Shown here: piece after piece, positions 31,957 to 38,652 of the stretch
How positions within the stretch are numbered: the first letter of the stretch is position 1
Layout: every line of letters begins with the position of its first letter
Origin: Spirochaetae bacterium HGW-Spirochaetae-1
Lineage (GTDB): Bacteria > Spirochaetota > UBA4802 > UBA5550
Length of the DNA: 64,000 bases
NCBI GenBank assembly: GCA_002839375.1
Contig: PGXY01000001.1
Span: forward strand, 310,001-374,000
Direction of reading: 5' to 3'
The notes under the pieces: generated by a model
Seen by the model: the letters and a program-made list of their open reading frames with translations, nothing else
Told to the model about the DNA's origin: nothing
Database searches by the model: none
Program-made: the position numbers and the translations under genes

Positions 31957-31964
31957 AAATACTG

Positions 31965-32317
31965 TGGAGACGGCGGGAGTCGAACCCGCGTCCTACAAAA
32001 TAGCCATACAGCGTCTACATGTTTATCCTGCTCATTTATTTCCAACTTTCAGGCCAGGAACAGGAACCGTCATTGAAAGTCTCGCCCCCTGTTGTTTCAC
32101 CCGCCACTCCGGGAGTTGAATATCGGGCTATCCTCTGTATTTGACGCCTCTAAGTATTCCAGAGGAGCGAATATCTTAGAGACGTAGCAGTTCTTAGGCT
32201 GCTAGTGCAAAATTATTGTTTGCAGTTAAATTTTTTCTGCCACGTTTTACGAGATGACAGCGCACTCGACATGCAGCTATACGTCTACACTTGCAGTCGA
32301 AACCATAATTCGTCCCC
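31965..32317 (-). ncRNA. ssrA: Transfer-messenger RNA (tmRNA)
   Basis: 353 nt on the minus strand, from GGGGAC at 32317 to discriminator A at 31965. The tRNA-like ends pair (GGGGAC with GUCUCC) and the 3' part has the T-arm GGGTTCGACTCCC. The CCA end is not encoded. The tag frame (32223-32194) reads GCA AAC AAT AAT TTT GCA CTA GCA GCC TAA, giving ANNNFALAA with the conserved ALAA proteolysis end. Pseudoknot-forming G/C blocks lie between tag and 3' end. tmRNA and SmpB rescue stalled ribosomes and tag truncated proteins for degradation. Confidence 0.96.
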
Positions 32318-33047: not shown

Positions 33048-33063
33048 GGATTTAGCAGAATTG

Positions 33064-33816
33064 ATGAAAACAGAAAATATACGGATTTTAAATAACAGGG
33101 GACTGGATCTGGCGGGTCGTCATCACGTCGGCAGCGATGCTGCCTCTTCCTGTGTGATTTACAGTCATGGCCTCTTCTCCAGCAAGGATGCCTATAAAAT
33201 AAACCGGCTCTCCGGGGACATCGTGGAGGCGGGATACGGTCTTCTCACCTTTGATTTTTCCTTTGCCGGGGATAATGACCGTAATGTTTCAGAGATATCC
33301 ATCGTGCAGGAGGTGGAGGACCTGCGAAGCGCCGTGCGCTGCATGCTTGAACAGGGTTACTCTTCTGTTCACCTCGTGGGTTCCAGCATGGGTGGGGTTG
33401 TGTCTCTTCTTTTTGCGGCGGATCCCGGTGAAGCGATCATAGAATCCATGGTTATCATTGCCACACCTGTGCAGCTCACCGATATCCTTACTGATTTGCA
33501 CCGGGTGAATATTGACGATCTGCCCGATGAGGGCTATACTTCTATAGAAGGGATTCCCCTGACAAATCGTTTTTTCAAGGAATTAAAATCGATAGATGTG
33601 GCCGGTGCGGTCAGGCGGATCATGGCCCCGGTGCTCATTATCCACGGCGCCGGGGACGCAGTCGTTCCTGCCGCCAATGCCTATGCGATTGAAGGCTTGT
33701 TGAAAGGTGAAAAAAAACTGGTCATGATCGATGACGGCGATCATAATCTTACCAGGGAATCGGATATCGCGATACTGAAAAACCGGATTATACCCTGGCT
33801 GCAGAGAGGATTGTGA
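33064..33816 (+). CDS. Alpha/beta hydrolase
   Basis: 250 residues, single-domain alpha/beta hydrolase. The oxyanion region is YSHGLFSSKDAY, the nucleophile elbow LVGSSMGGVVS, the acid LIIHGAGDAVVP and the His GDHNL. No signal peptide, so cytoplasmic. Close to the YqiA/DUF1749-like or esterase groups; the substrate is unknown. The first ATG at 33064 is preferred to TTG 33061. It lies between a lipoprotein gene and a small membrane protein gene, all on one strand. Confidence 0.85.
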   Translation: MKTENIRILNNRGLDLAGRHHVGSDAASSCVIYSHGLFSSKDAYKINRLSGDIVEAGYGLLTFDFSFAGDNDRNVSEISIVQEVEDLRSAVRCMLEQGYSSVHLVGSSMGGVVSLLFAADPGEAIIESMVIIATPVQLTDILTDLHRVNIDDLPDEGYTSIEGIPLTNRFFKELKSIDVAGAVRRIMAPVLIIHGAGDAVVPAANAYAIEGLLKGEKKLVMIDDGDHNLTRESDIAILKNRIIPWLQRGL

Positions 33817-33820
33817 TCCC

Positions 33821-34210
33821 ATGAATTATTATATATCCCTGTATATTTTAACAGCAGGAATTATTATCACTCTCATGGGAATTATGGAAATTTTGAAGCC
33901 CGTTTTGGCTTTTTCCCTGTGGAAAAGATGGGCAGAACACAGGCTGTTTTTTTTACATGGCATTCTTCTCATGGCGGGCGGATTTCCGCTCACCATCTAT
34001 AGCGGAAGATTTTCCGGTGTCATATTCGCCATAGGAATCATACTGGTGATGACGGGACCCTTTGTTCTTCTCTACCCCGGAAAATTCGCCCGCACATTTC
34101 AAACGGCCTCGGAGGAAATGGATCAGGACGGGGAGAAAAAAATAATTTATATCGAGGCCGTTTTTCGTATTGCCGCGGGAATGCTTTTTATCGGCAGCTA
34201 TGTTTTGTAG
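33821..34210 (+). CDS. Small four-helix membrane protein
   Basis: 129 residues with about four transmembrane helices (residues 4-24, 43-63, 66-88 and 110-128), separated by short charged loops. No recognised motif; layout similar to DUF2065-like or YeaQ-like small membrane proteins. It begins four bases after the alpha/beta hydrolase stop and is probably cotranscribed. Function unknown. Confidence 0.6.
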   Translation: MNYYISLYILTAGIIITLMGIMEILKPVLAFSLWKRWAEHRLFFLHGILLMAGGFPLTIYSGRFSGVIFAIGIILVMTGPFVLLYPGKFARTFQTASEEMDQDGEKKIIYIEAVFRIAAGMLFIGSYVL

Positions 34211-34295
34211 CAGGCCCGGGACGTATCAAGCTGGTTACAGAGTTATTCAGTGAAGCGAATGCATATCAATAATTATTGAACATACAGGAGTCACC

Positions 34296-37200
34296 ATGGA
34301 GTATATAAACATCGATCGGACACGGCGAAACAACGGCAAGGTCCATTCCTTCTCCAGCGTCTGCGAAGGGCATGGTTCAGCCGGAGATCTGGTAAAGGAT
34401 ACGGGATACTGGAGCAGCGAGAGGCGCAACGCGGCCATAACGGAATATGTCATCATCGAACATGAGGAGACCGTCACCGCCGATTATATAGAAATGATTC
34501 CTTCCCCGGGCGGCCCTGCCGCTTTTCCGCGGGGATTCCGTTTTGAGGGAAGCCTGGATAATATCGTGTGGAAGGTGATTCACACGGAAAAAGAATATGA
34601 ACTGGAAACAGCCTGTTGCCGGATTGATGTGCCGCTGATGCGGTTTAAGTATCTGAAAGTGGTGATTACGGAACCGGCCTTTTGCAATGAAAAACATTAT
34701 TCAGAAATTGGCAGTATCGTGACGGGAATATCGGGCCTTCATGAAATTATCGTGAGCAGCTCGCGGTCGTCCCAGCATGATGGAGCGAGGCTTATCGATG
34801 GTGATACCCGGAGCAGCTGGCAGTCTGCTGTAAACTCCAGCAGTACGGCCGAGTATGTCATGGCTGACCTGGGGAGTATATATTCCGTAAGCCGGATCAT
34901 TCTTCTTTCATCATCCAACGGCTTTCCCGAGGATTTCAACCTGGCGGTCAGCATTGACAACAGCCTGTGGACCACTGTTTTCGAGGAGAAGAACTTCAAG
35001 GCAGAACTGAATAGGAAATATTTCTGGGAAACGGGAGTTATCCCTGCCCGGTATGTACGCCTCGAAGCCAAGGGAGTGAGATTGTTCTCGGGAGAGTACG
35101 GCGTTCAGCTGGGTGGACTGGAAATAATGGCGGTCATGACGGATTCGGATCATACGCATAATATCGGGGATATAACTCCCCATGCTTCCATTTTCCAGGC
35201 AGGAGTCGTAAAGTTCGCCAAAGATGGAGAGGATATTTCGGGAGCGGCAGTACAGGGGAGTGATCGCAGGCTCCGGGATGCAACGACGCTGTTCAAGGGC
35301 ATTGTGCAGTTTGCGGAAGACGGCGACGATTCCGACACCCTGGCAGTCCAGGCATCGGACATGCGTCTCAAGCTTGCCACTGAGTATAACCCGGGAATTG
35401 TCCGTTTTGCCTATGACCGCGAAAATCAGCCCGGGACCGCGGTACAGGGGAATGATTCAAGGATACAGGAGGCGACAACAGACAGTTTCGGCATTGCCAA
35501 GCTGTGTCCCGACGGACTCTACACCGATCACGGTGTTGTTCTGGGGAGCGATTCGCGCCTCAGAAAAGCGACCACTGAGAAACATGGCATCTGCCGGCTG
35601 TCACCCGATGGAGAGAGCATCGCCGGCTCCGTGGTCCAGTCCAATGACAGGAGGCTGCGGGACGCAACGACGCTTTATAAGGGGATTGCCGAGCTTGCCG
35701 AGGACGGTGAAGACAGAGAGGGTGTTGTGGTTCAGGGCAATGACCGTCGCCTGAAGGATGCAACAACCATATCCAGGGGAATCGCCGAGCTTGCCGAGGA
35801 CGGTGAAGACAGGGAGGGTGTTGTGGTTCAGGGCAATGACCGCCGCCTGAAGGATGCAACAACCATATCCAGGGGGATCGCCGAACTTGCCGAGGACGGC
35901 GAGGACAGGGGAGGCGTCGTGGTCCAGGGTAATGACCGCCGTCTGAAAGACGCCACGACAGAATCGAAGGGAATTGTGGAACTTGCCGATGATGGAGAGA
36001 GCCTTCCCGGTGTTGTCGTACAGGGTAATGATAAAAGACTTCGCGATGCAACGGAAACCTCCAGGGGCATCATGCAGTTTGCCGTTGACGGTTCCGATTT
36101 ACCGCTGTCTGCCGTGCAGGGAAGTGACCGCAGGTTGAAGGATGCCACTACAGCCGCCAAAGGCATCATGCAGTTTGCCGTGGATGGTTCTGATTCACCG
36201 CTGATGGCGGTACAGGGTAATGATCGGCGTCTGAAGGATGCCTCCACCACGGCAAAGGGGATAGTGGAGCTTGCCGAAGACGGCGAGGACCGTCCTGCCG
36301 TTGTTGTGCAAGGGAGCGACCGGCGTCTGAAGGACGCCTCTGAAACGTCAAAGGGCATCATGCGCTTCGCACGAAACGGCGAAGATAAGGGCAATGCAGC
36401 AGTGCAGGGCGATGACCGACGTTTGAAGGATGCCTCTACTACATCGAAAGGGATAGTGGAGCTGGCCGAAGACGGTGAGGATAAAAGCGGTGTCGCAGTC
36501 CAGGGTGATGACAGGCGTTTGAAGGATGCCTCTACTACATCGAAAGGGATCGTGGAACTTGCCGGTGACGGAGAGAACCTTCCCGGTGTTGTCGTACAGG
36601 GTAATGACCGGCGTCTGAAAAACGCCACCACGGAGGCCACCGGTATAGTGCGTCTGGCCAGAAACGGGGTAAACAAAGAAGGAATTGCCGTACAGGCCAA
36701 CGATGCGAGATTATATGATGCACGGGAGTCATTGCCTCATTCGCACGACTATGCCCGCACAAAACATGAATTCAACACTCACCAGGGGACTATCAGTATA
36801 AAAGAATCAAAGAGCCAGGCCTTTAATGATATAACGCCTCCCTCCGATCATTCTACGATCATACATGGATACAACAGTTCAAGGGAAAACGGATCCATAG
36901 GGTTAGCCGGTGTTGCGGGGATTCTGTCGGAAAAGACCATACAGTCCTATGGCGTGGTAGGGCACAGCAATCATGTCGGTGTACGTGGGCAGGCTCCGGG
37001 GGGCGCCGAGGTGAAGGGATGCGGTGTTCTCGGTGTCTCCCGTTTCGGGGCTGGTGGTGTTTTTGCCAGCGAACACGACTATTCACTGGTGGCTGATGGA
37101 TACGGGAGTATTTCTCGCTATGATGACTCCATAAACCTGATGGGGAACGGCGATGCGCTGCTGGTCAACGGACGTTCGCATTTTAACGGTCCCATGAGTG

Positions 37201-37637
37201 TTCATAATGGGGGAGAGGAAAACCAGTTTCCCGGAAATATAGTGGAGTATTTCGAGGTTGATGAGGTGGAATACGTATCACCCGGCGACCTTTTAGTTGT
37301 AAGCGAAATGGGGAATGCAGTGCTATCCCGGTCAAGAAAGGAATACAACAGGTCCGTCATCGGTGTCGTGGCGGGAAATCCGCTCATCGCCATTAACAAC
37401 AGCGGACAGGAACAGAAGGTGTATCCCGTGGCCCTGGTGGGAAAAACGCTGTGTAAGGTTGATGCCCGCATCAGTCCCGTGAAACCAGGAGATCTCATCG
37501 TGGCGTCCGGTACTCCCGGATGCGGTATGGTGGGCAAAGTTGATTCTTTTGAAAAGATAGGCACGGTTATCGGAAAGGCCATGGATAGGCTGGAAGAGGG
37601 TATCGGCATTATTTCAGTTTTCATTACCCATCTGTGA
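34296..37637 (+). CDS. Large discoidin-like/tail-fibre-repeat protein
   Basis: 1113 residues, no signal peptide. Two discoidin (F5/8C)-like beta-sandwich domains come first (about 1-145 and 148-285; the second has ARLIDGDTRSSWQS). A THNIGDITPH linker leads to 16 contiguous 32-residue repeats (297-808), consensus ATTxSKGIVELAEDGEDxxG then VVVQGNDRRLKD, strongly like phage tail-fibre repeats. The C-terminus (about 820-1113) is glycine-rich beta sheet, ending in a module (VSPGDLLVVSEMGNAVLS, later VKPGDLIVASGTPG) found at the ends of large fibre or chaperone-like proteins, possibly self-cleaving. No phage genes surround it. A surface-binding fibre exported by an unknown route, or part of a contractile device, are options. 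Confidence 0.75.
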   Translation: MEYINIDRTRRNNGKVHSFSSVCEGHGSAGDLVKDTGYWSSERRNAAITEYVIIEHEETVTADYIEMIPSPGGPAAFPRGFRFEGSLDNIVWKVIHTEKEYELETACCRIDVPLMRFKYLKVVITEPAFCNEKHYSEIGSIVTGISGLHEIIVSSSRSSQHDGARLIDGDTRSSWQSAVNSSSTAEYVMADLGSIYSVSRIILLSSSNGFPEDFNLAVSIDNSLWTTVFEEKNFKAELNRKYFWETGVIPARYVRLEAKGVRLFSGEYGVQLGGLEIMAVMTDSDHTHNIGDITPHASIFQAGVVKFAKDGEDISGAAVQGSDRRLRDATTLFKGIVQFAEDGDDSDTLAVQASDMRLKLATEYNPGIVRFAYDRENQPGTAVQGNDSRIQEATTDSFGIAKLCPDGLYTDHGVVLGSDSRLRKATTEKHGICRLSPDGESIAGSVVQSNDRRLRDATTLYKGIAELAEDGEDREGVVVQGNDRRLKDATTISRGIAELAEDGEDREGVVVQGNDRRLKDATTISRGIAELAEDGEDRGGVVVQGNDRRLKDATTESKGIVELADDGESLPGVVVQGNDKRLRDATETSRGIMQFAVDGSDLPLSAVQGSDRRLKDATTAAKGIMQFAVDGSDSPLMAVQGNDRRLKDASTTAKGIVELAEDGEDRPAVVVQGSDRRLKDASETSKGIMRFARNGEDKGNAAVQGDDRRLKDASTTSKGIVELAEDGEDKSGVAVQGDDRRLKDASTTSKGIVELAGDGENLPGVVVQGNDRRLKNATTEATGIVRLARNGVNKEGIAVQANDARLYDARESLPHSHDYARTKHEFNTHQGTISIKESKSQAFNDITPPSDHSTIIHGYNSSRENGSIGLAGVAGILSEKTIQSYGVVGHSNHVGVRGQAPGGAEVKGCGVLGVSRFGAGGVFASEHDYSLVADGYGSISRYDDSINLMGNGDALLVNGRSHFNGPMSVHNGGEENQFPGNIVEYFEVDEVEYVSPGDLLVVSEMGNAVLSRSRKEYNRSVIGVVAGNPLIAINNSGQEQKVYPVALVGKTLCKVDARISPVKPGDLIVASGTPGCGMVGKVDSFEKIGTVIGKAMDRLEEGIGIISVFITHL
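35184..36719 (+). repeat. 16 tandem 96-bp coding repeats
   Basis: Sixteen in-frame units of exactly 96 bases inside the large repeat protein gene, with no insertions. Units 6, 7 and 8 (35664-35951) are almost identical, pointing to recent duplication; outer units have diverged. The copy number could vary between strains. Confidence 0.9.
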
Positions 37638-37782: not shown

Positions 37783-38415
37783 TCAGGGATTGAGTTTTTT
37801 AAGTATTTCCAGTTCTGTTTTATTAAACACCTTGAACTGGTATTCATTCAATTCTTTGGCGATTTCCTTCGAAATATAGGTGATTCTCCTGCAGAAGGGC
37901 TTTTTTTCGTAACGGTCCACCCACATGATTATGATTGTTTTATCCGAGTCCCATGCCATGGCGCCCTGATTGTCTTTCATGTTTTCGCTGCTTGATTCTC
38001 CATATTTTTCCGTAAGCTTTTTTTTCACATCCTCCATGGCAATGTAGGGAAATTTCAGGGCGACATAGAATAGCTTTCCCTCATCCTTTTTTTCCTCCGG
38101 TGACGCCGTACCTGCAGGAGCGGCGGATTCCTCTTTTTTTTCAACACCGTCGGGAATGGCAGCGGGATCAATGTAGAAGAAGCCGTAAATATACTGCAGC
38201 TCCCCGTCTTTGGATAGTATGATTTTCCTTTCATCGGTATAGGCAAGTTTTCCGTTTATCTTATCCCTGGCGTCACTGAGCATGGTCCCCCAGGAAATAT
38301 TGCCATATCCGTCGGGAAGGTTTTTTGCGGTTGTACCTCCCGTATCCTGAGCAGGAGCAAGCAAAGCCGTGAATATGAAGAAAGGAACAAGTATGGCAAA
38401 GGTGATTTTTTTCAT
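37783..38415 (-). CDS. Exported protein of unknown function
   Basis: 210 residues from ATG 38415. A signal peptide (KKITFAILVPFFIFTALLAPAQ) is followed by GYGNISWGTMLSDARDKI, a pattern seen in spirochaete exported proteins, a Glu/Ala/Pro linker (about 85-105) and an alpha/beta C-terminal part. A longer frame to 38457 lacks a ribosome site. I do not recognise the family. Confidence 0.6.
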   Translation of the reverse strand: MKKITFAILVPFFIFTALLAPAQDTGGTTAKNLPDGYGNISWGTMLSDARDKINGKLAYTDERKIILSKDGELQYIYGFFYIDPAAIPDGVEKKEESAAPAGTASPEEKKDEGKLFYVALKFPYIAMEDVKKKLTEKYGESSSENMKDNQGAMAWDSDKTIIIMWVDRYEKKPFCRRITYISKEIAKELNEYQFKVFNKTELEILKKLNP

Positions 38416-38652
38416 TATTAATAACCCATATTTCATTATTAGTAATAATATCGGCAAAAGATAGGGTAAAAAAAGAGTATTAATTACTACTGTTCTAAGT
38501 CAAATAGACAATTTAATGTAAAATGGAAATATCACTCTTTATGGCTCGTTCATGATAATAGCGATAAAATCGTGCAGGGCGGGGATTTTATATTTGACAT
38601 AAATGATTAATACCGTGTCTTATTATGGCTTTCTTATGGAAAGGAGTTGTTT

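Follow-up and report, generated by a model that had tools for sequence, protein, structure and literature searches.

How does a protein that resembles phage tail fibres come to stand among ordinary cellular genes in a spirochaete, and what might it do there? The open reading frame in question (34296..37637, + strand, stop codon included) lies in a 64,000-nucleotide stretch of DNA, here called the window, and encodes a fibre-like protein of 1113 residues, the family of which we call F0. Its ATG start is preceded by a ribosome-binding site, AGGAG, at 34286-34290. An earlier note on this DNA had described two discoidin-like domains, 16 gapless 32-residue repeats of tail-fibre likeness and a glycine-rich C-terminal module, with neither signal peptide nor phage neighbours. 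It had offered three explanations: an adhesin leaving the cell by an unusual export route, a component of a contractile injection or tailocin-like device encoded elsewhere, and a domesticated phage gene. The description was borne out on all these points, and the last explanation fits best of the three, given remote kinship to T4 and phi29 proteins and no link to tail genes.

The N-terminal part of F0 belongs with the F5/8 type C (discoidin) domain proteins. Pfam PF00754 scored 77.7 bits against a cut-off of 28.2 (E 1.1e-21), in two stretches. In an AlphaFold2 monomer model the first 280 residues formed two confidently folded discoidin domains (pLDDT mostly >85), for which the best Foldseek matches were tandem CBM32 and neuropilin b1b2. 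Domain 1 covers approximately residues 1-147 (34296..34736, +; pLDDT ~90). Domain 2, at approximately residues 148-281 (34737..35138, +), was matched by PF00754 over residues 153-260 and, in a PDB search, by the CBM32 structure 5zu6 (E 7e-7).

Residues 303-814 (35202..36737, +) comprise exactly 16 consecutive 32-residue units with zero insertions or deletions; units 6-8 are near-identical at the DNA level as well, with a 96-bp period. A profile built from three-repeat stretches of 15 proteins was searched against PDB sequences. Its top match was gp34, the proximal subunit of T4-type long tail fibres (E 6e-4), and three entries of the short fibre gp12 were found among the next five (E 0.02-0.04); a trp-attenuation protein scored 0.016 in the same search. 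Single sequences matched PHROG tail collar fibre families. These matches point to a remote relationship in sequence between the F0 repeats and those of T4 gp34 and gp12, although with so short a repeat they, and the C-terminal matches described below, could be convergent. Each unit was modelled as strand-strand-helix, at low confidence. The low confidence of the monomer models for the repeats and C-terminus is what an intertwined trimer should give, but a wrong idea would give it too.

The number of units proved far more constant than the sequence around them. Complete homologues carried 8 (n=27), 16 (n=11), 15 (n=5), 14 (n=2) or 10, 9 and 7 units (n=1 each), and none exceeded 16. All 27 complete homologues on the Leptospira side have 8 units and an array of exactly 256 residues, whereas the parts around the array vary in length (N-terminal 279-321 residues, C-terminal 248-289) and pairwise identity falls as low as 28%. 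On the window's side 14-16 units predominate; the low counts there, from metagenome-assembled genomes (MAGs), may reflect assembly collapse. The full homologue alignment contained zero small insertions or deletions inside units. In long arrays, position identifies units 1-4 and the final unit, while those in the middle are homogenised. Doubling of an 8-unit array to give 16 was not supported, unit i being not specially similar to unit i+8. We infer from the constant unit number that length is under selection; slow turnover could produce the same constancy.

Downstream of the repeats lies a His/Gly-rich linker module (approximately residues 815-975; 36738..37220, +) with the motifs HxHxYA, GVxGHS and GCGVLGxSRFGAGGVF. 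It is conserved in an alignment of 17-18 homologues, has no family match and could not be folded as a monomer. The C-terminal domain (approximately residues 976-1113; 37221..37634, +) appears to be a remote relative of the phi29 gp12 chaperone and Peptidase_G2. With a profile of the last ~135 residues, the first PDB match was the C-terminal domain of the phi29 preneck appendage, 3gqh (E 0.0015). Peptidase_G2 (PF11962), named in the earlier note as a family to search for, gave sub-threshold matches in 7 of 17 homologues; its best score, 20.4 bits, lies under the Pfam cut-off of 25. The C-terminal part as a monomer had a mean pLDDT of 38, and this model was not used.

In the alignment, an xxVExFE motif of the F0 domain falls where the cleaved phage domain begins. 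The phi29 gp12 protein cuts itself between Ser691 and Asp692, directly before an AEYFE motif. Gly980-Asn981 of F0 aligns with this pair; the aspartate position holds Asn or Gly in all 15 aligned homologues from the order and other residues in Leptospira. Self-cleavage of F0 is unlikely because the phage Ser-Asp pair is Gly-Asn, and judging by these residues the domain probably stays attached and uncut. No paralogues of the module were found elsewhere in the same genome. Plasmids of Streptomyces, Rhodococcus and Paraburkholderia encode small stand-alone proteins that terminate in this module too (L024:12019-12963, L025:11563-12363 and L026:11503-12360), each with an uncharacterised gene directly downstream; the Streptomyces and Paraburkholderia copies retain the aspartate of the cleavage pair.

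F0 is single-copy in its own genome, and the word 'orphan' used for it earlier did not survive comparison: the gene was present in 43 of the 46 genomes examined of its order, covering all seven families, and in Leptospira, Turneriella and related families. Outside the order it occurs only in families on this Leptospira/Turneriella side, and 82 of 393 sampled genomes of the phylum had a match to the C-terminal part. Named relatives come from Spirochaetes MAGs and Leptospiraceae/Leptospirales, including the second replicon of L. interrogans and a Turneriella plasmid. In a tree of the non-repeat parts, a branch with full support separates the 8-repeat sequences from all others. This distribution and tree pattern argue for an old cellular gene rather than a mobile one, and the sequences indicate vertical inheritance across the spirochaete class of Leptospira, Turneriella and the window's order. 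A phage origin through close relatives was rejected, none being found in viral contigs or phage records; phage and viral sets returned weak tail-fibre matches only, with E near 1. A short repeat match on a Patescibacteria contig (L128:6001-6174; 52% over one to two units, E 4e-6), the sole one labelled outside Spirochaetota in that scan, is possibly due to chance or misbinning.

We favour, with moderate confidence, the reading of F0 as a phage-type fibre that has been domesticated and serves as a tether of fixed length. Three chains would probably associate through the C-terminal chaperone-like module, whereupon the 32-residue units would stack into a trimeric rod, its length set by their number. 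Six discoidin domains, of a carbohydrate-binding type, would then sit at the N-terminal end of the trimer. Most likely, such a rod would act as a tether or spacer within some cellular structure belonging to this spirochaete class. The protein would be made in the cytoplasm without Sec export and possibly acts inside the cell.

The main rival, which we consider doubtful, is a surface adhesin: the trimeric fibre would leave the cell by a Sec-independent route, such as lysis or an unrecognised exporter, and its discoidin domains would bind host or matrix glycans. Discoidin/CBM32 domains usually bind extracellular carbohydrates, the best solved relatives of those in F0 are CBM32 domains, and receptor binding is typical of the fibre architecture. 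However, no hydrophobic segment was found at the F0 N-terminus, nor any convincing signal peptide or membrane anchor among the homologues. Across 67 homologue sequences, a set in which some genomes were entered twice and a few starts are over-extended, median N-terminal hydrophobicity lay far under that of neighbours with apparent signal peptides. A Pfam scan of F0 found no YadA-type anchor domain, and F0 does not fit the pattern of a Sec-exported trimeric autotransporter adhesin. Repeat number is usually variable in adhesins but fixed in F0, and F0 is kept as one core copy in many uncultured lineages, which also speaks against this role.

The genes around F0 in the window were read from their sequences as non-phage: an acyl-CoA dehydrogenase, a thioredoxin, a D-aminoacyl-tRNA deacylase and an HtrA-type protease, besides a tmRNA gene (31964-32317, -; tag ANNNFALAA). 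No phage genes were found among the neighbours examined. Genes for an alpha/beta hydrolase and a 129-residue membrane protein lie upstream on the same strand (33061..34210, +); no family but the window's has them beside F0. The most conserved neighbour in the order is the convergent gene F1 (37783..38457, -), encoding a 224-residue protein with a hydrophobic N-terminal segment and no Pfam family; we do not assume a functional tie. Outside the window's family, most families of the order have as divergent neighbour F2, which encodes a protein of ~320 residues (loci L030, L046, L022 and L023; alignment A7). F2 is present, nearly always in single copy, in nearly every F0-bearing genome, and had no convincing match in Pfam, NCBIfam, PDB or PADLOC. 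A phospholipase D-like protein usually follows it in the order. In the window's family the F2-F0 linkage is lost, and F2 lies at G000:C5:312407-313441 (L132).

In Leptospira relatives, ~20 loci preserve a block of F2, a Fis/AAA regulator, ParA, ParB, an HTH_36 protein and F0, to which metF may be added (loci L022, L046 and L098-L123). L. interrogans has the block on its second replicon, of 350 kb, and Turneriella has part of it on the 25-kb plasmid pTURPA.01; hence it is perhaps the core of a second replicon. A cytoplasmic role for F0 in maintaining that replicon would suit this retained linkage, and F2 is also the divergent neighbour in most families of the window's order, but such a role seems improbable to us: F0 lies away from parAB in the window's order and away from F2 in the window's family, the linkage may be an inherited gene order near an origin, and no F0 domain points to DNA work.

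Elsewhere in the genome of F0 lies a contractile prophage of Mu type (G000:C2:404229-428000; L130 and L131), whose genes include those for integrase, baseplate J, hub, tape measure and sheath. It was recovered by the genome search for baseplate and sheath genes that the earlier note had suggested and contains the genome's only Baseplate_J gene. Its sheath was matched by the PHROG family phrog_165 and missed by Pfam PF04984. The T4 tube family PF06841 had no match in the genome, nor in the control, so this result is uninformative. A device of this kind was among the earlier note's options: F0 would be the fibre with which a prophage, tailocin or injection system, its contractile tail being encoded at another place in the genome, binds a receptor. 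This would suit the phage-type repeats and chaperone-like C-terminus of F0 and the presence of this prophage at 405-428 kb, but is very improbable, because of the order's 46 genomes 2 contain the sheath family and 11 Baseplate_J, far fewer than carry F0, while the prophage carries its own small candidate fibre gene beside the baseplate (weak BppL_N match) and F0 is vertically inherited among housekeeping genes.

Returning to the fixed-length tether, a bolder version can be proposed, which we hold to be rather unlikely. In one spirochaete class the phage-type trimeric rod would have become a molecular ruler and core component, with its length selected (exactly 8 units in one half of the class, ~16 in the other) to bridge a gap of constant width in some cell structure that has yet to be described. 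It would work with F2 and, in Leptospira relatives, be coupled to the replicon-partition locus.

A few cases are known in which cells use parts of phage fibres. We found no account of a core protein that is single-copy, extends across a whole class and is built largely of such parts without tail machinery, and the function of F0 seems undescribed in the literature. With the repeat number fixed, selection on length can be tested cleanly, and direct functional testing is feasible because the gene is present in Leptospira, laboratory strains among them. The genera that carry F0 include that of the leptospirosis agent. Study of F0 also draws attention to F2, a protein conserved across the same spirochaete class.

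Among the known proteins closest to F0 are those annotated as 'discoidin domain-containing protein' on the L. interrogans second replicon and on pTURPA.01 of Turneriella parva, which by architecture and tree are F0 orthologues. They differ from the window's protein in having 8 repeats instead of 16, and their annotation is by domain alone; a literature search on Leptospira and discoidin returned nothing relevant, and no paper on these orthologues was found. The repeat itself recalls T4 gp34 and gp12. In the crystal the gp34 repeat is a trimeric alpha/beta fibre unit: a strand begins at a glycine, the chain comes back through a loop, and a short helix then lies against the three-fold axis (PMC5537660). 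F0 shares the tandem arrangement, the unit of ~32-33 residues, the glycine at the predicted strand start and, in the model, the short helix at the end (PMC5537660), whereas its units are gapless and fixed in number and have no accompanying tail genes. The helix cap is also different, being Thr/Ser-Pro in gp34 and Asn/Ser-Asp without proline in F0, where the glycine is invariant. At the C-terminus, the phi29 preneck appendage gp12 is the best PDB match and shares a motif with F0, yet F0 falls below the Peptidase_G2 cut-off and is without the Ser-Asp cleavage pair. A precedent for a cellular protein with a tailspike-type trimeric stalk and chaperone is the animal transcription factor MYRF, whose trimerising chaperone domain is of phage type (PMC8326128). 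Unlike F0, MYRF is eukaryotic and membrane-bound and has another active site, a Ser-Lys dyad.
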